Assembly (NCBI RefSeq): GCF_003851885.1
Contig: NZ_BHZE01000022.1
Location: forward strand, 1-48,414
Direction: 5' to 3'
Source of the DNA: Thermaurantimonas aggregans
Lineage (GTDB): Bacteria > Bacteroidota > Bacteroidia > Flavobacteriales > Schleiferiaceae
DNA: 48,414 nucleotides
The notes beneath the pieces are model-generated. The model was given only the letters and a program-made list of their open reading frames with translations. It ran no database searches and was not told the origin of the DNA. The position numbers were made by a program, and so were the translations under genes. How positions within the stretch are numbered: position 1 is the stretch's first letter; each line of letters begins with the position of its first letter. Below, one piece after another: positions 11,292-35,400 of the stretch.

Positions 11292-13514
11292 ATGAAAAAT
11301 ACCTACTTGTTTGGAATTTTGGTTTGTAGCCTAAATCTGATTGCCGATCCAGATACCACCCTCCTCAACGAAGTAACCATCATCGGTAGCCGAATGGAAC
11401 GCATTACTGGATCAGGCGAGCAAATTTCGGCCGAGAGATTGCTACGGCTCAATCAACCTGACTTCACAAAGGTTTTGCGACTGGTACCTGGAGTAAACAT
11501 CCGCGATGAAGAAGGATTTGGCCTTAGGCCAAACATTGGAATGAGAGGCACCAGCGTCGACCGCAGCCGAAAAATTACCTTAATGGAAGATGGCATTCTT
11601 ATAGCTCCTGCTCCATATGCTGATCCACCAGCTTATTACTTTCCCACCTTTATGCGCATGGAAGGAGTAGAAGTACTCAAAGGCAGCAGCCAAATCAAAT
11701 ACGGGCCCTACACCATTGGCGGTGCTATCAATCTCTTGTCAACCTCCATTCCTGACCGGTTTAAAGCCAGCCTGTCAGCAGCTTATGGTACTTTTAATAC
11801 TAGTCAGCTTCGGATAACAGCCGGTGATACCAAAGGAAATTTTTCCTATGTCTTCGACGCAGGTCGCTGGGCTACTGATGGGTTTCGCCAGCTTGACAAT
11901 GGTGGCAACACCGGTTTCGAACGTCGCGATTTCATGGGAAAAATTCGCTATGAAACTCCTTCAAATGCAAAAATCAAACAGTCGATCATGCTGAAATTTA
12001 TGGCTATGACTGAAAACAGCAATGAAACCTATCAAGGCCTCACTTTTCAGGATTGGCAGTCAAATCCCTTACGCCGTTATGCATCGTCGCAACTCGACAA
12101 GCTCGATATGAACCATCAACACATCTCACTGCATTACGCCATTCAACCCCATAAAGATCTGATAATCACAACTCAAATCTACCAAAATAACACCTTTCGT
12201 ATCTGGAACAGAGCAGCCAGTGCCGGAGGCCAGTCGGTATTGAACATCATCAATAATCAATCAAACTTCACAACCCCTTACCAAATTCTCACCGGCCTGG
12301 CCGACGGCCAAATTCAGTATCAGAGTGCTCCCCGCACCTACCTTTCCAATGGCATTCAATCACAGGCCAAGTATTTCTTTAATTTCGGACAAGTAAAAAA
12401 CACCTTCTCCGCAGCTATTCGCTATCATATCGATGAATCAGATAGACGAAACACCCGCTCAATCTATCAAATGACCGAAGGAAAACTCATCCTCACCCAG
12501 GCTGGCATCTCGGGCAATGCAGAAAATCAAATTCGCAAAGCAGAAGCACTCTCCGGTTTTGTAAACTACGATGCCGAATTTGGCCGACTACTCCTATCTG
12601 CAGGTGTCCGCATTGAAGATGTAACACTCCAAGTACTCGACTACGGTACACAAGACAATGCCCGCACTGGAGCAAATCTCAAAACTGCCTCCAATTCCCT
12701 TACTGTCCTTCTGCCCGGAGTGGGCTTTAATTACCAGACACACTCCGGAAGCCACCTCTTTGGCGGCATTTACAAAGGCTTCTCACCTCCTGGCCCACCC
12801 AGATTAGACTCCATTCGCCAGGCCGAAGCCGAAACAGCCTTTAACTATGAACTGGGATACCGCATCTCCAAAGATCAGTTTCAGTTTGTAGCTACCGTTT
12901 TTTACAACGACTACATCAATATTCTGGGATCCGATGCAGCCTCTACCGGAGGTATGGGTACAGGCAACATGTACAACGCAGGCCGTGCTACCACCCTTGG
13001 CTTTGAATTTACCGCTGAGTCTGATCTTCTTCATCTCCTCCAATATAATTCATCCTTCCAGCTGCCTCTTCGAATTGCCTACACATACAGCGACTCGCGC
13101 TTCCGCGAGACTTTCATCAACGCCGGAGGAGACTGGGGCACAGGACAGATCAACGCTGGCGATCTGATCCCCTTCATCAATCCCCATATCCTCACCGCTA
13201 CACTAGGGCTCGACCGCCTTGATCGCTGGAATTTTACCCTCATTGCCCGCTATACCTCTGCCATGCGTGTACGTCCGGGCCAGGGCGCGCTCATCTTCCC
13301 CGATCAGGTCACCGATCTCAGCCAGATGAATGCTGTGCGCAGCAACTGGTTTTTCGACCTCTCAGGCAACTACCATCTAACACCCAAGGTGGCCCTTACA
13401 GCATTGATCAACAACTTATTCAATAACTTAGCCATCGTCTCTAACCTGCCCCAAGGGGTGCGTACCGGCATGCCCTTCAGCGTACTGGCCGGTGTACGTT
13501 TTCAAATCCAGTAA
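11292..13514 (+). CDS. TonB-dependent outer-membrane receptor, FecA-like
   Basis: The 740-aa outer-membrane barrel imports a ferric siderophore or ferric citrate-type ligand using TonB energy. A short signal peptide (MKNTYLFGILVCSLNLIA) is followed directly by the TonB-box region (TTLLNEVTIIGSR), with no carboxypeptidase-like extension. The plug domain spans about 45-150 with NIGMRGTSVDRSRKITLMED and VEVLKGSSQIKYGPYTIGG, close to the FecA group. The rest is beta-barrel, ending in VLAGVRFQIQ. No FecI/FecR-type regulators are adjacent and no N-terminal signalling domain is present. Transcription probably depends on iron through the upstream palindrome. A terminator and a GC-rich 3' element follow. 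Confidence 0.9.
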   Translation: MKNTYLFGILVCSLNLIADPDTTLLNEVTIIGSRMERITGSGEQISAERLLRLNQPDFTKVLRLVPGVNIRDEEGFGLRPNIGMRGTSVDRSRKITLMEDGILIAPAPYADPPAYYFPTFMRMEGVEVLKGSSQIKYGPYTIGGAINLLSTSIPDRFKASLSAAYGTFNTSQLRITAGDTKGNFSYVFDAGRWATDGFRQLDNGGNTGFERRDFMGKIRYETPSNAKIKQSIMLKFMAMTENSNETYQGLTFQDWQSNPLRRYASSQLDKLDMNHQHISLHYAIQPHKDLIITTQIYQNNTFRIWNRAASAGGQSVLNIINNQSNFTTPYQILTGLADGQIQYQSAPRTYLSNGIQSQAKYFFNFGQVKNTFSAAIRYHIDESDRRNTRSIYQMTEGKLILTQAGISGNAENQIRKAEALSGFVNYDAEFGRLLLSAGVRIEDVTLQVLDYGTQDNARTGANLKTASNSLTVLLPGVGFNYQTHSGSHLFGGIYKGFSPPGPPRLDSIRQAEAETAFNYELGYRISKDQFQFVATVFYNDYINILGSDAASTGGMGTGNMYNAGRATTLGFEFTAESDLLHLLQYNSSFQLPLRIAYTYSDSRFRETFINAGGDWGTGQINAGDLIPFINPHILTATLGLDRLDRWNFTLIARYTSAMRVRPGQGALIFPDQVTDLSQMNAVRSNWFFDLSGNYHLTPKVALTALINNLFNNLAIVSNLPQGVRTGMPFSVLAGVRFQIQ

Positions 13515-13535
13515 AGCGCTTCTTCATTGCAATCA

Positions 13536-13567
13536 AAAGGGGGCTGCAGTGCCCCCTTTAATTTTTT
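13536..13567 (+). terminator. Rho-independent terminator of the TonB-dependent receptor gene
   Basis: AAAGGGGGC (13536-13544) pairs with GCCCCCTTT (13551-13559) around TGCAGT, followed by AATTTTTT. It is 21 bp after the stop codon. Confidence 0.9.
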
Positions 13568-13599
13568 CGATGAATCTGTTTTTTTTTTTTTTTTTTTTA

Positions 13600-13850
13600 G
13601 GGCGTGCCCTTCGCAGCACGCCCTGGCGGGCAGCTGCTCAGGTCGGGCTAGTGGCTCATACTCGCCTTGCAGGTGGGGGTGGTACATTTTATTTGTCTAG
13701 TCCCAGCTACAGCCGGCTTCTCAAGGGCTGCGTTGTCTGCCCTGGCGGGCCAGCCAGCCTCTCCCTTTGTACCACAAGCCCCACCTGCTGCGGCTCATAT
13801 CCGCCACTATCCCTCACGCAACAGCAGCCTTCGGCTGCTATTGTTTCCAA
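13600..13850 (+). repeat. GC-rich structured 3' element (copy 2)
   Basis: It begins directly after a 20-base T tract (13579-13598) with GGGCGTGC pairing with GCACGCCC (13600-13607 and 13616-13623). It shares blocks with copy 3: GGGCGTGCCC, GGTCGGGCT, GGGCTGCGTTGTCTGCCC, CAGCCAGCCTC, GCTCATATCCGC and ATCCCTCACGCA. TGCCC-tggc-GGGCCA forms a hairpin in the same place as in copy 3. TGCGT (13729-13733) can pair with ACGCA (13816-13820) to close the module. It ends in a strong hairpin, AACAGCAGCC-TTC-GGCTGCTATTGTT. Open frames crossing it have atypical composition (Ser/Pro/Cys-rich) and are not called genes. From memory, elements of this style are widespread in Bacteroidota intergenic DNA. Confidence 0.75.
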
Positions 13851-13878
13851 TGAATTCTAAATGTTTTTACACCGACCT

Positions 13879-14112: not shown

Positions 14113-16962
14113 TTATCTGCTCAAATATAAGTTTCGTTCGCTATACACCTTCTTAAATACTGGATCGCGAAGGTTTTTAATAAAGTGAATGGCCTCGCCT
14201 GTCGATCGCATCTGCGGACCGAGCTCTTTGTTTACGTTCGGAAACTTGTTGAATGAAAATACCGGTATTTTAATAGCATATCCGTCAAGTTGAGGCTTGT
14301 ATTCAAAATCTTTCACCTTGTTTTCACCCAACATAAAGCGCGTTGCGTAGTTCACATAGGGCTCCCCGTATGCCTTTGCGATAAAGGGCACTGTACGGCT
14401 TGCCCTCGGATTGGCCTCGATCACATACACCACATCGTTTTTGATGGCAAACTGCACATTGATGAGCCCTTTCACTTTCAAGGCCTTTGCTATGGTGATA
14501 GTATGCTCTCGAATTTGCTCAATAATTAGTGGCCCCAGATTAAAGGGTGGTAGTACAGCATGGCTATCACCCGAATGAATGCCACAGGGCTCAATGTGTT
14601 CCATAATGCCAATGATGTACACATCTTCTCCATCTGCTATGGCATCGGCTTCAGCCTCAATTGCCCCATCCAGATAGTGATCAAGTAGTACTCTATTGCC
14701 CGGAAAGTCTTTGAACAACTCCACCACGTGGTGTTCGAGCTCTTCCATGTTGATGACGATCTTCATGCCCTGTCCGCCTAGTACATAACTCGGACGCACA
14801 AGTAGCGGAAAGCCCAGCTCTTCAGCCACTTCGTAGATCTGATCTGGATCAGTGATCACATCAAATTTCGGATACGGTATGTTGTGCTCTCTGAGTAAAT
14901 TCGAAAACTTTCCGCGGTCTTCTGCCAAGTCAAGCGACTCGAAGCTGGTACCAATGATAGGTATGCCGTAGCGATGCAGTTTCTCAGCCAACTTCAGAGC
15001 CGTCTGCCCGCCCAGCTGCACGATTACCCCAATAGGCTTTTCATGCAAAATGATCTCATATATGTGTTCCCAAAATACTGGTTCGAAGTACAGCTTGTCC
15101 GATATGTTGAAATCGGTCGAGACAGTTTCAGGGTTGCAATTGATCATAATGGTCTCGTAGCCACACTCGCGAGCAGCCAATACACCATGCACACAGCAGT
15201 AGTCAAACTCGATTCCCTGCCCGATGCGGTTTGGGCCGCTGCCGAGCACCACTACTTTTTTGCGATCCGAAACCTTACTGTCGTTTTTTACTTCCAGCGA
15301 GCCATCGGGTCGCATTACAGGCATCTCAAAGGTGGAATAGTAATACGGAGTCTTTGCTGGAAACTCGGCAGCACAAGTATCAACGAGTTTGTACACTCGT
15401 TTGAAGCCATACTCCATCCGTTTGTTAAACACCTCACTTTCGAGCCTACGCAGCATGTGGGCAATTTGCCTGTCGGCAAAACCCTTTTGCTTTGCCTCAA
15501 AGAACAACTCCGGTGGTAAAGACTCGAGGGTATGCTCTTCAATACGACGCTGGGTATTGGCCAGATCCTCGATTTCACGCAAAAACCACATATCGATCTT
15601 CGTGATTTCATGGATTTTGCGAAGCGGTATGCCCAACTGTATGGCGTCGTAAATCACAAAAATTCTGTCCCAGCTCGGATTTGCCAGCTTCTCGAGCACT
15701 AGGTCTTGATTGGTCAGCCCTTTGCCATCAGCTCCCAATCCATTGCGCTTGATTTCGAGCGATTGAGCCGCCTTGTGCAAGGCTTCTTGAAAACTGCGAC
15801 CTATACCCATTACCTCGCCTACAGACTTCATCTGCAATCCAAGTCGGCGATCAGCCCCTTCAAATTTGTCGAAGTTCCAACGAGGTATTTTTACGATTAC
15901 GTAATCGAGCGTAGGTTCGAAGTACGCCGATGTTTCACCGGTTATGGGGTTGGGCAGCTCTGTCAGATGATATCCAAGGGCCAATTTAGCGGCAATTTTG
16001 GCAATTGGATACCCAGTAGCTTTACTTGCTAAAGCTGATGAGCGCGACACCCTCGGGTTGATCTCGATAGCTACAATATCTTCTTTTTCATCCGGACTTA
16101 CTGCAAACTGCACATTACATCCCCCGGCAAACTTGCCCAGATTTCGCATCATCTTAATGGCCATGTCGCGCATGCGCTGATAGGTGCGATCACTCAGCGT
16201 CATGGCTGGAGCTACGGTGATCGAGTCGCCTGTGTGAATACCCATCGGGTCGAAATTCTCAATCGAGCAGATGATCACCACATTGTCGTTGCTGTCGCGC
16301 AGCAGTTCGAGCTCAAATTCTTTCCAACCCATCAAAGCCTTGTCGATCAGCACCTCGTGTATCGGACTCTCTTCCAAACCGCGCTTCAGCAAGCTGTCAA
16401 AGTCCTCTTTGTGGTACACGATAGATGCTCCTGAACCTCCAAGCGTAAACGAAGGCCTGATACATAGGGGGAATCCAAATTCTTGGGCAATTTCTTTTCC
16501 TTTCAGATAGGATGTGGCAATCTTCGAAGGTGCGTAGGGTATGCCCTGCTGATCGAGAAACTGCCGGAAGCGCTCCCGATCTTCTGTAATGTGAATGGCT
16601 TCAATATCTACACCGATAATTCTGACACCATATTCCTGCCAAAGCCCTTGTTTATCAGCTTCAATACATAGATTTAAGGCAGTTTGGCCTCCCATGGTGG
16701 GCAATACAGCGTCGATTTTTCGCTCTTGCAGAATTTTTTCCAGACTCTCAACAGTTAGAGGCAAAAGGTATACATGGTCGGCCGTTACCGGATCGGTCAT
16801 GATGGTGGCCGGATTGCTGTTGATCAGTGTGACTTCAATGCCCTCTTCGCGTAGAGATCGGGCAGCTTGCGACCCACTATAATCAAATTCACAGGCCTGT
16901 CCGATCACAATAGGTCCCGATCCTATAATGAGTACCGATTTAATGCTGGTGTCTTTAGGCAT
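14113..16962 (-). CDS. carB: Carbamoyl-phosphate synthase large subunit, short form
   Basis: This subunit makes carbamoyl phosphate from bicarbonate, two ATP and ammonia delivered by CarA, for arginine and pyrimidine synthesis (EC 6.3.5.5). The two homologous ATP-grasp halves are present: the first carries IGSGPIVIGQACEFDYSG and NPRVSRSSALASKATGYPIA, the second GSGPNRIGQGIEFDYCCVH and EANPRASRTVPFIAK, with the oligomerisation domain between. At 949 aa the protein stops soon after the second half (LGPQMRSTGEA), where E. coli CarB (about 1073 aa) continues with a roughly 120-aa methylglyoxal-synthase-like domain that binds UMP and ornithine. From memory, short CarB also occurs in Flavobacteriaceae. 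carA is about 30 kb away. Confidence 0.96.
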   Translation of the reverse strand: MPKDTSIKSVLIIGSGPIVIGQACEFDYSGSQAARSLREEGIEVTLINSNPATIMTDPVTADHVYLLPLTVESLEKILQERKIDAVLPTMGGQTALNLCIEADKQGLWQEYGVRIIGVDIEAIHITEDRERFRQFLDQQGIPYAPSKIATSYLKGKEIAQEFGFPLCIRPSFTLGGSGASIVYHKEDFDSLLKRGLEESPIHEVLIDKALMGWKEFELELLRDSNDNVVIICSIENFDPMGIHTGDSITVAPAMTLSDRTYQRMRDMAIKMMRNLGKFAGGCNVQFAVSPDEKEDIVAIEINPRVSRSSALASKATGYPIAKIAAKLALGYHLTELPNPITGETSAYFEPTLDYVIVKIPRWNFDKFEGADRRLGLQMKSVGEVMGIGRSFQEALHKAAQSLEIKRNGLGADGKGLTNQDLVLEKLANPSWDRIFVIYDAIQLGIPLRKIHEITKIDMWFLREIEDLANTQRRIEEHTLESLPPELFFEAKQKGFADRQIAHMLRRLESEVFNKRMEYGFKRVYKLVDTCAAEFPAKTPYYYSTFEMPVMRPDGSLEVKNDSKVSDRKKVVVLGSGPNRIGQGIEFDYCCVHGVLAARECGYETIMINCNPETVSTDFNISDKLYFEPVFWEHIYEIILHEKPIGVIVQLGGQTALKLAEKLHRYGIPIIGTSFESLDLAEDRGKFSNLLREHNIPYPKFDVITDPDQIYEVAEELGFPLLVRPSYVLGGQGMKIVINMEELEHHVVELFKDFPGNRVLLDHYLDGAIEAEADAIADGEDVYIIGIMEHIEPCGIHSGDSHAVLPPFNLGPLIIEQIREHTITIAKALKVKGLINVQFAIKNDVVYVIEANPRASRTVPFIAKAYGEPYVNYATRFMLGENKVKDFEYKPQLDGYAIKIPVFSFNKFPNVNKELGPQMRSTGEAIHFIKNLRDPVFKKVYSERNLYLSR

Positions 16963-30971: not shown

Positions 30972-32078
30972 TTAAAAATTAAACAGATCAAAAGCCCCTC
31001 TTGTTTGTCGGTCGATGAGCAAGCAACGGGCTTGTGCTCTTTTTCGGATGCTGCGCTCGCGACAGAAGTACACATTTTCAAACCGATAAACCAGTCCAAA
31101 TTCATGTGTTCCGGCGGTATTCTGCGGGCCGAGCGCTGAGAGCACAATGTCGTAGCTGTAGGATAGGGTAAAGCCTGTAAACTGATATCCAATATTGAAG
31201 ATTAAGGACTCGATACGTCGATCGACGAGTGGATACAGCTCAGAGCGTAAGCCTAAGCCCACAAGCACGTGATCACCGAAATTGGTACTTACATGAACGG
31301 CATTGCTGGTAAGTGTGCTTTGCCAATGGCGCACATAGCCGAACGAGAGGTAATGTTGGTTTCGATTGCGATAGGGTGAACTGAGCAAAAAATGAGTAAA
31401 AAAGTGGGCAGTGTAGCGAGTAGGGATTCTATGGTCGAGGCCTATCTTGGTTTCACGGGGTCTATTCAGATGGAAACCTGAGAAACCTAGTGAGAAAAAA
31501 GAACCCTCGCGTGTGATTTCACCACGAAAGAGGATGCCCGCGGAGAGGTCATGGGTGAGATTAGAGACGTCGTTTCCGATGTTGAGCGCAGTGTTGGGCG
31601 ATACAATGCCTTGAAAGGGATCGATTTGATCAGAGAAGACTAGCTTTGACCAGTCGATGCGCTTCTGGGCTAGGCCGTACTGAAGGCCGGCGCCTATGAG
31701 GTATTTGGCTTTACGCATTTGTCGAAAGGGCCAGTTGCGACCAAAAAAACCAGGGATATTTACAGATACTGCTGTGGCAAAGTCGGTTTTATGATAACCT
31801 GCCGTTCCGACAATGTGGTCGAAGAGCCTAAGACCGAAGCCTACGCCCGTAGTAGGGCAACCAATGTCAGCTGTAGCAAGTGTGATGCTATGTGGGCCGG
31901 GCAAATTGGTCCATTGCTGACGATTGACCACGCCGATGGTAAGGTCGCGATTTACGCCGGCATAAGCGGGATTGAGATAAAGACGATTGATGTAAAACTG
32001 CGAGAGAATGGGGTCTTGAGCTTTAACCGTAAGCCAAGTGATTACCAAAAGTAGCGCTGCTGACGTGTGCCTCCGCAT
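30972..32078 (-). CDS. PorP/SprF-family T9SS membrane protein
   Basis: From the ATG at 32078 the protein (368 aa) has a signal peptide (MRRHTSAALLLVITWLTVKA) followed at once by QDPILSQFYINRLYLNPAYAG, the hallmark of PorP/SprF proteins. The rest alternates amphipathic strands of an outer-membrane beta-barrel. Family members are paired with T9SS machinery or with particular large T9SS cargo proteins such as SprB adhesins. Here no such partner is directly adjacent; the nearest T9SS cargo (32635-35400) is separated by the 3' element. The frame extends upstream to 32144, but that would place 22 unlikely residues before the signal peptide. Confidence 0.87.
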   Translation of the reverse strand: MRRHTSAALLLVITWLTVKAQDPILSQFYINRLYLNPAYAGVNRDLTIGVVNRQQWTNLPGPHSITLATADIGCPTTGVGFGLRLFDHIVGTAGYHKTDFATAVSVNIPGFFGRNWPFRQMRKAKYLIGAGLQYGLAQKRIDWSKLVFSDQIDPFQGIVSPNTALNIGNDVSNLTHDLSAGILFRGEITREGSFFSLGFSGFHLNRPRETKIGLDHRIPTRYTAHFFTHFLLSSPYRNRNQHYLSFGYVRHWQSTLTSNAVHVSTNFGDHVLVGLGLRSELYPLVDRRIESLIFNIGYQFTGFTLSYSYDIVLSALGPQNTAGTHEFGLVYRFENVYFCRERSIRKRAQARCLLIDRQTRGAFDLFNF

Positions 32079-32309
32079 TGCAGAGGTGGCTAAGTGGGTT
32101 ATTACAATTGCACTACTGAATCTCATGACTGCTTTACCATGCAAAGGAAAGTATATGTACTTCTGTAAAAAGTGGCAAATGGGATAAGCGCATGTATTTT
32201 TTTGTAGAGCTTAGCGTTTTTCGCGATTTTCAGAGATGTGTGGCTGAGGAGCTTTGATTGATATGATGTGAGATGATGCTTGAGAGATTGATGGAGATCG
32301 GATGCGTTT

Positions 32310-32575
32310 GGAGGCCGCAGCTGCGTGAGGGATCGAAGCGGATATGAGCTGAAGCGAGTGGGCAATCGGCACCTGGGTGAGGCTGGCTGCCCCTTTGGGC
32401 AGACAACGCAGCCCAGATGAAGTGGGCTATAGAAAGCACGGTGTGGTAAGCGGTGACGGAAGTGAGTAGAGCTGGTGGTGAAAAGCTGTAGTGCCGTGCC
32501 CACTCGCAAAGCGAATAAGAGCGGAGAGCCCGACCCGAACGACTGAGCGAAGCGAAGGAAGTGAGGGGCACGCCC
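32310..32575 (-). repeat. GC-rich structured 3' element (copy 3)
   Basis: On the minus strand it starts at 32575 with GGGCGTGCCC right after the terminator of the T9SS cargo gene. Its CGTGCCC can pair with GGGCACG about 60 nt further on (GCGAGTGGGCACGGC). The second half has GGGCTGCGTTGTCTGCCC with CTGCCC-aaag-GGGCAG as a hairpin, then CAGCCAGCCTC, GCTCATATCCGC and ATCCCTCACGCAGC. GCTGCGT (complement of 32406-32412) pairs perfectly with ACGCAGC (complement of 32320-32326), closing that module. Open frames through it on the same strand are Ser/His/Arg-rich and not gene-like. The 556-bp gap from 32079 to 32634 holds, besides this element and the terminator, only the leader of the PorP/SprF gene. 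Confidence 0.78.
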
Positions 32576-32634: not shown

Positions 32635-35400
32635 TTACTTTTTAACTACACGTGTAGTGTATGTGCCTGATGCTGTGGTAATTCTGAAGACATACACTCC
32701 TGCAGGCCAACTTTGAACATTGAGGGAGGCTCTTTCGCTGACAGATAAGGTGGTGATCTTCTGTCCTTGAAGATTGATTACCTCTACCTGAGCGGGCTGA
32801 GTAAATTCGATGTTCAGGAGCGATGAGGCGGGGTTAGGATAAATGCGGCCGATTTCGAGGGTGAGCTCTTTTACAGATACTGGATAGTTGCCTGGGCTGC
32901 CCACATCGCCGTCGAGTGAAGTGTAAGCACCGTTTACGCCGTTAATGGAAAGACCAGTATTAACGCCAGCTGTATCGAAGTTGAAAGTGAAACCGGGGGT
33001 ACCGTTGGTCCAGCTTACTTTTTTGACTTCGCGGCCGAGGCTGTCGTAGAGCACTACCATATCAGCAGCTGTGCCTAGGCCAGGGAAACCACCATTGCCT
33101 GTAAACTGATCGCGGCAGAGGATCTGCACAGCATTAGCCGGCATTTTCCACATTTGGGCAAATGCGTTTCTATTTGCTTGCAAACCTCCCCATACTACAA
33201 TGGCTTCATTGGGTGCAATGGTGATACCGTTGGGGAACACGTTGACACCTACGCGCTGCTTGTCGTCGTCCCAAGAGAATCCGTCGAGAGACACTGGAGT
33301 GCTGCCGTAATTTTTGATTTCGAACCAGTCAGCGTTAAGGTCAGAGTTGGTACTGATGGAGTTAAACATCACTTCGCTGATGGTGAGTTTTGGCAGTGGA
33401 ATGTTAATAACCGGAATGAGGTCTTCCTTGTAGCGGGGCTGAATCTGATAGCCGCCTACGAAGGGTGGATTGGTTGAAGTTGTAAACTGGCTTCCATGAC
33501 CTCTTAGGTGGAAGGTGCCCACTGGAGCAGGTTCGTTGTTGAGAGTAGTCCACTGGTTAATGCGGAGGAGGAAGGTGTCGGTACCATTGGTTACCAAAAC
33601 GTTAAGGCCTGTAGTACTTGGTGTTTGCCACTGGGTAGGGTCTACGAGGGTTAGGTTTTGGAGTTCAATGATTCTACCTTCTTCGTTTTCACCCACTTGA
33701 GTGACAATTGCCGGGGATGGGAGTGAATTGCCTGTAGATAGGATGGTCAGTGAGTCGGGCTCAAACTGGAAAAGGCCTCTGAACTGTGTAACCTTACCGA
33801 CGAGACGAAGCCGCTGACCTTCAATGGGCACAAAAGAACCTAAAGTCGGACCGACCCTACGCACCATGCAGCCTGCAGTATTGCTGTCGTTTACCAGCCA
33901 AAACTGGGCACCTTGCTGGGTGGGACTAAGGAGGTTTCCACCTGAAACGATTCCTTCGATTCGGCAGTACACGTTCAGCGAATCGAGTACACCTTGCGCG
34001 TTGACACTCCGAAGCTGTGCGATATTATAAGTAGGAATAACCGCGGGAGGAGGGGGCGGGGGTGTAGAGGTGGTAATATCAGATGCTCTTCGCGGTTGAA
34101 TTTGATAGCCTGCGGTAAAGGGAGAGGAATTGTCAAACTGATTGCCGTGGCCTATAACATTGAAAAATCCTGTGGGCTGTGGTGTACCTGAGGCAGTAGT
34201 ATTTCCGTTGATGCGCAAGATGAATGTATCGTTTACGGTATTGTACACGCTGGCGTTGAAGGAGCCCGAAGAGTTCCAAGTAGTACCTGTTACGAGACGA
34301 AGGCTATCGATGCGAATCAAACGACCTTCGGTAGCTTCGTTTGGTTTGGTTACCGTGGCGGGATTGGGAAGAGGATTGTTTTGTGACAATACGATTATGG
34401 TATCAACTGAAAACTGTATCAGTCCATTAAATTGACTTACAGCACCAGTAATTCTTAGAAAATCGCCTTCTGTCACCGTATAGGAGTTATAGTTAATCTG
34501 GCGTACAAGTAAACCTGCATCGTTATTTGGGCTTATCAACCAGAATTCTACCCCACCTTGTGAAGGTGTTCTCAAATTGCCACCTGAAACGAGGCCTTCG
34601 ATGCGGCAAGCAACATTCAGTGAATCTGCCACGCCGTTGGCATTTACACCTTTGAGGGCTGAAATGGGATAGATAGGCAATCCTGAACTGGCCTGCGGAG
34701 TGCTGGTGATGGTAATGTCATCTAATCTGACGCGCGGACGAGAACCACCTGCTCCTGCAGCTGATTGGTAGTACACCCAGCGCACCTGTACGAGGGGTTG
34801 ATTGTTGCAGGCTGCTGGCAAAGTAGCCGTGATGATGGCAGAGTCGCCTGCTACAGTAGAAGTGGTATAAAAGGCATTGCCTGGTACATTGATGAAGTTA
34901 GAAGTAGTATCGAGGCGATACTGCAATCTCAATCTGAATACGCGTGGATTGCTGGCATTGCCGTTTCCATCACCAGGTGTGGCTGTTTGTGCTTTGAAGG
35001 TAATGGTGATGTTTTCTCTGCCCAGAGCATTCAGAGCAGCCACAGCACTGCCTACATAACGTGTATTAGAAGCAGTGCCACTTGCGCAATTGTCCCAAAG
35101 AGGTGAGCTAGTAGCCTGGAAGAAAATTCCACTGTCGCCACCGCCATTGATGCGGTTACGAGATGTCAGGTTGTAGGCACAATTCCACACACCAGTTCCT
35201 GGAGCCGTACTGTCGTATGAGGCCGATGTAGGATCGGTACTGAAGTAGAACAACATGTTGTTTGGAAAGGTACCTACTGGAGCTGAAGCAGCCCATTGAT
35301 TGAAGGTATAACTACCGGTACTTAGGTTAAAGGGAGTGGGTTGCTGAGCTATTAGCCCGAGGGTGACCAGTGAAGAGAACGCAAGCAGAATTTTTTTCAT
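32635..35400 (-). CDS. Large secreted protein with two OB-like repeats, lamin-tail domain and T9SS sorting domain
   Basis: The 921-aa protein has a signal peptide (MKKILLAFSSLVTLGLIAQQ). Residues 21-235 form a beta-rich domain (VRLDDITITS at its end). Two homologous units of about 200 aa follow, at about 243-443 and 455-668. Each has SLNV-x-CRIEG-x-VSGGNL, a G-x-FWL core, L-V-G-x-V-x-QF-x-G-L-x-QF and GGYQIQPR, resembling DUF5689-type OB-fold domains. They are joined by six prolines (447-452). A lamin-tail domain (LTISEVMFNSIS...DWFEIKNYG...SLDGFSWDDD, about 675-800) and a type A T9SS sorting domain (IYPNPASSLLNIEF...GVYVFRITTASG) complete it. Lamin-tail and OB units often occur in surface nucleases or phosphatases, but no catalytic domain is seen here. 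Confidence 0.83.
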   Translation of the reverse strand: MKKILLAFSSLVTLGLIAQQPTPFNLSTGSYTFNQWAASAPVGTFPNNMLFYFSTDPTSASYDSTAPGTGVWNCAYNLTSRNRINGGGDSGIFFQATSSPLWDNCASGTASNTRYVGSAVAALNALGRENITITFKAQTATPGDGNGNASNPRVFRLRLQYRLDTTSNFINVPGNAFYTTSTVAGDSAIITATLPAACNNQPLVQVRWVYYQSAAGAGGSRPRVRLDDITITSTPQASSGLPIYPISALKGVNANGVADSLNVACRIEGLVSGGNLRTPSQGGVEFWLISPNNDAGLLVRQINYNSYTVTEGDFLRITGAVSQFNGLIQFSVDTIIVLSQNNPLPNPATVTKPNEATEGRLIRIDSLRLVTGTTWNSSGSFNASVYNTVNDTFILRINGNTTASGTPQPTGFFNVIGHGNQFDNSSPFTAGYQIQPRRASDITTSTPPPPPPAVIPTYNIAQLRSVNAQGVLDSLNVYCRIEGIVSGGNLLSPTQQGAQFWLVNDSNTAGCMVRRVGPTLGSFVPIEGQRLRLVGKVTQFRGLFQFEPDSLTILSTGNSLPSPAIVTQVGENEEGRIIELQNLTLVDPTQWQTPSTTGLNVLVTNGTDTFLLRINQWTTLNNEPAPVGTFHLRGHGSQFTTSTNPPFVGGYQIQPRYKEDLIPVINIPLPKLTISEVMFNSISTNSDLNADWFEIKNYGSTPVSLDGFSWDDDKQRVGVNVFPNGITIAPNEAIVVWGGLQANRNAFAQMWKMPANAVQILCRDQFTGNGGFPGLGTAADMVVLYDSLGREVKKVSWTNGTPGFTFNFDTAGVNTGLSINGVNGAYTSLDGDVGSPGNYPVSVKELTLEIGRIYPNPASSLLNIEFTQPAQVEVINLQGQKITTLSVSERASLNVQSWPAGVYVFRITTASGTYTTRVVKK

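Follow-up and report, generated by a model that had tools for sequence, protein, structure and literature searches.

REP and BIME sequences, which are associated with RAYT (Y1_Tnp) transposases, are short palindromic intergenic repeats that form a single hairpin; MITE-type non-autonomous elements are short and non-coding, with inverted outer arms; and SINE-type and one-ended (IS91/Helitron-like) movers have one fixed and one ragged end. The element described here has features in common with each of these, and also with Flavo-1 (Rfam RF01705), an orphan candidate RNA.

In the passages of its first report (Weinberg et al. 2010) that concern it, Flavo-1 is rated ‘probably’ an RNA and ‘probably not’ cis-regulatory or a riboswitch (PMC2864571). 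The parts of a Flavobacterium psychrophilum transcript study that deal with Flavo-1 describe hits in sense and antisense orientation alike relative to transcribed regions, with many outside them, together with some 5′ transcribed regions that coincide with hits (PMC9723704). Within the portions of the literature returned by our search, nothing bears on the present element beyond the Flavo-1 work.

Here, we compare two copies of a GC-rich element in a 48,414-nucleotide stretch of Thermaurantimonas aggregans DNA (the window) with related copies in the same genome, in other bacteria, and in virus contigs. The original prediction, made from sequence, was of a conserved RNA or 3′-end element that has similar sequences in other Bacteroidota, where we do find related copies, and no established name. 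As for the name, that is close to correct: Rfam has the inner module of the related copies as Flavo-1.

Two copies in the window and their relatives in the genome

Copy 1 occupies positions 13600-13819 and copy 2 positions 32323-32575, as placed by alignment, fold, and block scan; the blocks that first drew attention to them extend to 13820 and from 32322, respectively. They were first read on the + strand for copy 1 and the - strand for copy 2, which we refer to as the reader strand; the better-folding strand is the opposite one, - for copy 1 (where it is also the Flavo-1 strand) and + for copy 2. The six ordered blocks noted at both loci are each present once per locus, exact and in the same order, and nowhere else in the window, and the pair is beyond chance. 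A BLAST search of the 2.67 Mb genome gives 29 matches to the element at E <= 0.001, located at 27 places, with two copies each matched as two fragments, and a strict pattern for the 5′ half has 22 matches there versus none for a reversed control pattern. The sequence between the blocks had been thought unrelated, which fails across the family: 16 copies (15 from this genome and one from genome G001) can be aligned over their full length, some with long insertions.

Copy 1 lies between a TonB-dependent receptor gene on its left (11292-13514, + strand) and a carbamoyl-phosphate synthase large-chain gene on its right (14113-16962, - strand). Copy 2 has a gene with a lamin-tail domain and a T9SS sorting tail upstream in reader orientation (32635-35400, - strand) and a PorP/SprF gene on the opposite side (30972-32144, - strand). 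As predicted, a terminator-like hairpin precedes each copy, at 13536-13559 on the + strand, 3′ of the TonB receptor gene, and at 32617-32587 on the - strand, both resembling intrinsic terminators in simple consensus scans. Between the former and copy 1 is a run of 20 T residues (13579-13598, + strand), which in the flank profile adjoins the sharp left boundary of the copy. A small hairpin (AGCAGCC-TTC-GGCTGCT, 13823-13839) is located immediately 3′ of copy 1, and by eye similar hairpins come after several other copies in this genome. Two contigs (C24 and C21, at loci L025 and L026) end in identical terminator sequence adjoining oppositely oriented element copies, perhaps a repeat that broke the assembly. 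A coding repeat is rejected, as the open reading frames across the copies (13492-13860, + strand; 32123-32509, - strand) have no Pfam match and it is base pairing that maintains the sequence.

The preference for T in front of the element extends beyond the window. At positions -3, -2, and -1, T is found in 95, 95, and 86% of the 22 copies in this genome, 81, 81, and 78% of 118 copies in other bacteria, and 61, 51, and 80% of 31 virus-contig copies. The claim that the element follows the orientation of its upstream gene holds for T. aggregans (15 of the 17 copies that could be placed) and not for other bacteria, where 46 copies lie with and 39 against the upstream gene (46/85); the figure in virus contigs is 9/21. 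These counts cover the 123 of 172 unique copies that could be classed, 17 others having a neighbour more than 600 bases away and the rest lacking a neighbour on both sides. Because the orientation rule is random outside this genome, no general 3′-end role is evident.

A covarying three-way junction and the likely folding strand

The common core of all related copies is a three-way junction formed by a helix P1 (GCGTK:MACGC), a hairpin P2, and a swappable domain P3. In reader orientation it reads TTT-GGGCGTKNCCC-(hairpin P2)-GGTCGGGCTN-(domain P3)-N′ATCCCTMACGC-R, where K pairs with M and N with N′. In copy 1, the P1 arms are GCGTG at 13602-13606 and CACGC at 13815-13819, P2 occupies 13608-13642 between the P1 arm and TCGGGCT, and the P3 domain spans 13645-13813, closed by GGG (13645-13647) pairing with CCC (13811-13813); it has a 159-nt insert and contains the GGGCTGCGTTGTCTGCCC hairpin. 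In copy 2, the P1 arm at 32569-32573 (GCGTG on the - strand) pairs with 32323-32327, and the P3 insert is 193 nt. Both agree with the consensus at all 23 columns that are invariant among 64 aligned cores from elsewhere than this genome, most of these columns being fixed by the search pattern.

The junction is strongly supported by covariation. With one copy taken per genome or contig, K:M is a Watson-Crick pair in 105 of 107 cases against a shuffle maximum of 68, the pair being free to fail only where the other four P1 pairs held, and N:N′, which was unconstrained like the internal loops, is Watson-Crick in 99 of 107 against a maximum of 54. All four pair types are used, and G.U occurs at neither position (0/107 each). 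Among the 64 aligned cores (64 of 103 genomes or contigs entered this alignment), 95.6% of cells pair, compared to 43-51% when the partner is slid by one base, and 87 cells have two-sided changes versus a shuffle mean of 28.8. Rows with more than two core mismatches (more than one in one count) or with fewer than four of five P1 pairs were excluded before the orientation, covariation, and loop counts, so most core positions are conserved by this selection of rows. A covariance model of the core, R1, scores the window copies below significance (13.4 and 11.6 bits, partial alignments).

This covariation places the closing helix at GCGTG:CACGC (13602-13606 with 13815-13819) rather than at the TGCGT:ACGCA helix of the original prediction. 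The hairpin after GTCTGCCC, said to be kept with different bases in the two loci, has the same GCCC:GGGC stem in both and differs mainly in its loop; the base-pair changes are found in other copies instead. By eye, the P2 hairpin is present as several tandem repeats within the element at L021 (1801-2000), duplicated in L025, which suggests slippage in P2. The genome containing L028, L029, and L030 has a second type of P3 (CTCTGGGGTACGCTTCGC...) within the same outer core, and the 33 complete copies of genome G014 have a P3 type similar to it.

The strand that folds is most likely the opposite of the reader strand: both the fold and its internal loops, rich in purines, are better accommodated there. 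In consensus folding (alifold) the energy is -62.0 kcal/mol on the opposite strand versus -48.2 on the reader strand. Unpaired core bases are mostly pyrimidines on the reader strand and appear on the opposite strand as A, GA, an A.G mismatch, and 3x3 GNA/GNA loops, a type of loop that can stack as sheared G.A pairs. Among the 155 copies with N:N′ paired, to which the internal-loop count was restricted, the first loop position is G.A in 114 and the third A.G in 81; both sides are GNA in 78, the loop is fully Watson-Crick in 8, and the other 69 are neither. In five of the 16 aligned copies the 3x3 loop has changed jointly to Watson-Crick GTG:CAC, and a sixth (C3) nearly so. Loop composition gives no clear strand preference. 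RNA folds of single copies from five loci are good on both strands in three, better on the Rfam strand in L047, and poor on both in L099.

Wobble pairs were also considered. An early count sided with the reader strand (69 G.T versus 21 A.C), its excess coming mostly from one conserved T.G position in P3 that itself points to the reader strand. Without that position, the reader strand has 2 G.T and 5 A.C among 334 pairs in P2, and 5 of each among 354 in the P3 hairpin. Terminator hairpins counted for comparison have 103 and 29 among 3325, from which the reader-strand balance differs (7:10; p=0.0025) and the opposite-strand balance does not (10:7, p=0.13; 18:8, p=0.32, when the long stem is added). 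In the long P1/P3 stem of the 16 copies the opposite strand has 8 G.U versus 1 A.C, but the terminal P1 pair, with 13 G.T and no A.C on the reader strand, counts against the opposite-strand choice. The wobble counts are small and mixed, and the folded molecule may be either RNA or single-stranded DNA.

Relation to Flavo-1 and distribution

Flavo-1 matches nine of ten element loci of other genomes at E <= 0.1, six of which reach its gathering score, and always opposite to the reader orientation; the tenth locus, from G014, has no match. The Flavo-1 model corresponds to the inner P3 module – a closing helix, an A.G mismatch, a T:A pair, 3x3 purine loops, and a terminal hairpin – and resembles our element in being folded on the same strand and multi-copy. 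It differs in lacking P1 and P2, and the P3 domains of the window copies are longer (159 and 193 nt). The window copies share the closing helix, the A.G mismatch, and the T:A pair of the inner module on the Rfam strand; for its GNA/GGA internal loop, copy 2 has GAA/GGA and copy 1 has GTG:CAC instead. The window contains no Flavo-1 match at the gathering score and none at E <= 5 within either copy, and membership of Rfam by search is rejected, no known family matching them. At E <= 0.01 there are no Flavo-1 matches in this genome (G000; 150 of 461 candidates scored) or in G014, and at least 78-113 in each of five g21 genomes (taken by inference as Flavobacterium), with at most 150 candidates scored per genome. 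In one contig (G394:C1), 58 of 86 Flavo-1 matches are on the + strand (p=0.0016), with an excess in both halves of the chromosome.

Loci such as L052, L047, and L056 combine the outer core also seen in the window copies (GGGCGT...ACGC) with a Flavo-1 match, several g21 Flavo-1 matches have another outer part (AGCTATTTCCTG...CAGGGCT), and at one orthologous site with 92-94% identical flanks two genomes have the same outer part but different inner hairpins. The outer and inner parts therefore behave as modules. The window copies represent a new variant, GC-rich and with a long P3, of a larger group of elements that includes Flavo-1.

The strict 5′-half pattern is found in seven of 60 relatives including the T. 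aggregans genome, with 22 matches in the latter and 35 in G014, and in 18 of 296 genomes of the phylum (own included), two of which (L058 and L059) lack the 3′ half and look like chance hits within genes; it is absent from 33 of 35 genomes in other genera of the same family. The core model R1 identifies at least 39 of the 296 phylum genomes, at most 19 candidates being scored per genome, and misses T. aggregans, whose long P3 it does not span. Among the matches listed, the complete core is present in Flavobacterium, Pedobacter, Chryseobacterium, Fibrobacter, Treponema and Spirochaetes MAGs, and one Myxococcales MAG, the Fibrobacter, Treponema/Spirochaetes, and Myxococcales MAGs being few and MAG contamination being possible. 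Pattern matches in many further phyla lack the 3′ half. Copy number varies between genomes from none found to more than 100, these being lower bounds from different search methods.

Complete cores are also carried by virus contigs. A window copy used as query has no BLAST match in plasmids, and one viral-type query no match covering 80% of it in phages. In six virus contigs (L199, L214, L215, L223, L252, and L260) the element is 12-481 bases from related small open reading frames, and the three proteins tested (L199, L215, and L223) match PHROGs for terminase small subunits. The element as a phage TerS site was considered and rejected, as the TerS-like neighbours in these six contigs are related proteins from too few lineages. 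In two virus contigs a weak match to the 3′ half lies 3.7-5.2 kb away.

Patterns of dispersal and rival explanations

Within ten multi-copy sets, 43 of 61 copies have their nearest P3 relative in their own genome, compared to a random expectation of 6%. This holds for every copy in the T. aggregans genome (18/18), SKYG108 (16/16), Kf353 (4/4), and L232 (3/3), but for only half of those in G197 (2/4) and for none of the 16 copies in five sets of three or four (G273, G257, G209, CANNBV, and Kiruna). Genome G014 has 33 complete copies of 117-135 bases with mostly different flanks; nine of the 40 stretches taken from it gave no complete element. The left flank is alike in only one of 759 non-independent copy pairs, defining a sharp left boundary. 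The right flank is alike in 20 of the 759 (likewise non-independent), and some copies are similar for tens to hundreds of bases beyond the boundary, partly because some sit in larger composite repeats, to which some of the shared G014 tails belong. One such composite, seen by eye in the right flank of L385, has one P3 type followed some 450-500 bases on by sequence resembling the other type, inverted.

Among 163 copies, flank repeats of at least 8 nt occur in 1.2, 4.3, and 12.9% across three windows versus 0.6, 2.9, and 9.6% of controls, so that no clear target-site duplication is seen (p 0.18 in the widest window); repeats of at least 7 nt in that window occur in 36% versus 28% (nominal p 0.03, uncorrected). 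With the origin taken at dnaA and the terminus assumed opposite, there is no replication-strand bias (26/59 and 39/86), and lagging-strand mobility was rejected for this reason. Three sites, with flanks 74-94% identical, are occupied in all three related genomes compared, and two of these genomes share a fourth; this would also fit an element that is useful and inherited vertically. No clean empty site was seen: one orthologous site holds other sequence and another a short remnant. Near 381222-381730 of G456:C11 (L345), orthologous to an element site in G124, is a perfect palindrome, GGGACAAGTCGCGACTTGTCCC, with a REP-like look.

Candidate movers were sought among known protein families. The Y1_Tnp domain (PF01797) is not detected in G000, G001, G257, or G273, and is present once in G014, 11 times in G209, and in 18 of 25 genomes searched, element-free ones included. 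The reverse transcriptase domain RVT_1 is not detected in G000, G001, G010, G014, or G257, and is found in the remaining eight of 13 genomes with the element or Flavo-1 and in two of 11 without a strict match. No gene-bearing, autonomous version with the same ends was recognised among the loci listed, and inspection by eye of the 25 largest clusters of neighbouring open reading frames revealed no recurring mobile-element gene near bacterial copies. The element resembles REP and BIME sequences as a palindromic, intergenic, multi-copy repeat, and some of its genomes also have Y1_Tnp, but it forms a three-way junction rather than a single hairpin and has no replication-strand bias; movement by RAYT is weakened by the lack of detectable Y1_Tnp in the T. 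aggregans genome. Like MITEs, it is short and non-coding, has inverted outer arms, and forms genome-specific families at unrelated sites, but it differs in the lack of clear target duplications, in having no autonomous partner among the loci listed, and in a fold conserved across phyla. An attC-like integron site was also considered, and by eye the core sequences do not fit.

We slightly favour the interpretation that the window copies belong to a dispersed, non-coding, non-autonomous three-way-junction repeat, a GC-rich relative of Flavo-1 spread by an activity acting in trans; its mobility we infer from its dispersal. A transcribed structured RNA with a host function – either a small RNA or a cis-acting leader or trailer, its fold kept for binding a ligand or protein, in line with the original proposal for Flavo-1 – is possible but a good deal short of an even chance. 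It would account for the strong covariation, internal loops that are rich in purines on one strand, a degree of vertical conservation where sites are orthologous, and an opposite-strand wobble balance not different from that of terminators (p 0.13) with 8 G.U versus 1 A.C in the long stem, and would agree with the ‘probably’ RNA, ‘probably not’ cis-regulatory or riboswitch rating in the Flavo-1 passages of the first report (PMC2864571) and with those F. psychrophilum 5′ transcribed regions that coincide with Flavo-1 hits in the relevant parts of the transcript study (PMC9723704). However, those same parts have hits sense or antisense indistinctly, with many outside transcribed regions (PMC9723704), and further points against a host RNA are random gene orientation outside T. 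aggregans, copy numbers ranging from none found to more than 100, a folded strand that runs antisense to the gene before it in 15 of the 17 placed copies of this genome, and the scarcity of both kinds of wobble pair in P2 and in the P3 hairpin. The complete absence of G.U at the two covarying core pairs (0/107 at each) would instead suit a DNA site maintained by the host in the manner of the Escherichia coli BIME, the fold, extruded or single-stranded, being bound by gyrase or by a nucleoid or recombination protein, as would vertical conservation and the intergenic, mostly 3′-of-gene positions beside T-tracts in the T. aggregans genome. We think this unlikely: the element is also in virus contigs, and no strict match is present in 33 of the 35 genomes that represent other genera of the family, so no general host role is evident. 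We know of no protein that binds the element.

Movement of the element can itself be construed in more than one way. In a SINE-like retroposon, the RNA would be the antisense of the reader strand, ending in ...ACGCCCAAA, and would be reverse-transcribed from a T-run primer to leave a fixed 3′ and a ragged 5′ end. The element resembles SINE-type and one-ended movers in its T/A-tract at the fixed end and its partly ragged other end, and its better-folding, purine-looped strand is the one such a retroposon would need. A fixed 3′ end with an A-tract together with a ragged 5′ end is seen in a minority of copies, whose tails may be composite repeats. Against such a mover, some shared G014 tails are part of composite repeats, clear target duplications are lacking, and no RVT_1 is detected in either G000 or G014, both with many similar copies. 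Retroposition of this kind is very improbable. We are also doubtful of the broadest formulation, namely a modular, gene-less mobile family extending across phyla (Bacteroidota, Fibrobacterota, Spirochaetota, and phages) that moves as a folded single strand of RNA or DNA to T-tracts with no target duplication, its outer junction and inner hairpin exchangeable and Flavo-1 one of its inner modules.

Under the narrower interpretation that we favour, of a non-autonomous repeat spread in trans, the trans-acting activity would recognise the folded strand, opposite to the reader strand, and join its fixed end beside T-rich sequence. In T. aggregans the target sites may often be T-tracts that lie behind genes; this would account for copies taking the direction of the upstream gene here and not elsewhere. 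The copies would then be passengers in intergenic DNA that exert no control over the adjacent gene. As for the original prediction of a conserved RNA or 3′-end element, a conserved, structured, and covarying element is what we find; the strand, the closing helix, and a general 3′-end role are not borne out.

For Flavo-1, these comparisons add a conserved outer junction (P1 and P2) that is lacking in the Rfam model and point to a likely strand. They also show that its parts can be exchanged and that it has relatives in virus contigs and in further phyla, and its behaviour is more that of a spreading repeat than of a riboswitch. If this is true, an orphan RNA would become a testable question of what copies Flavo-1-type elements, and whether it does so as RNA or DNA.
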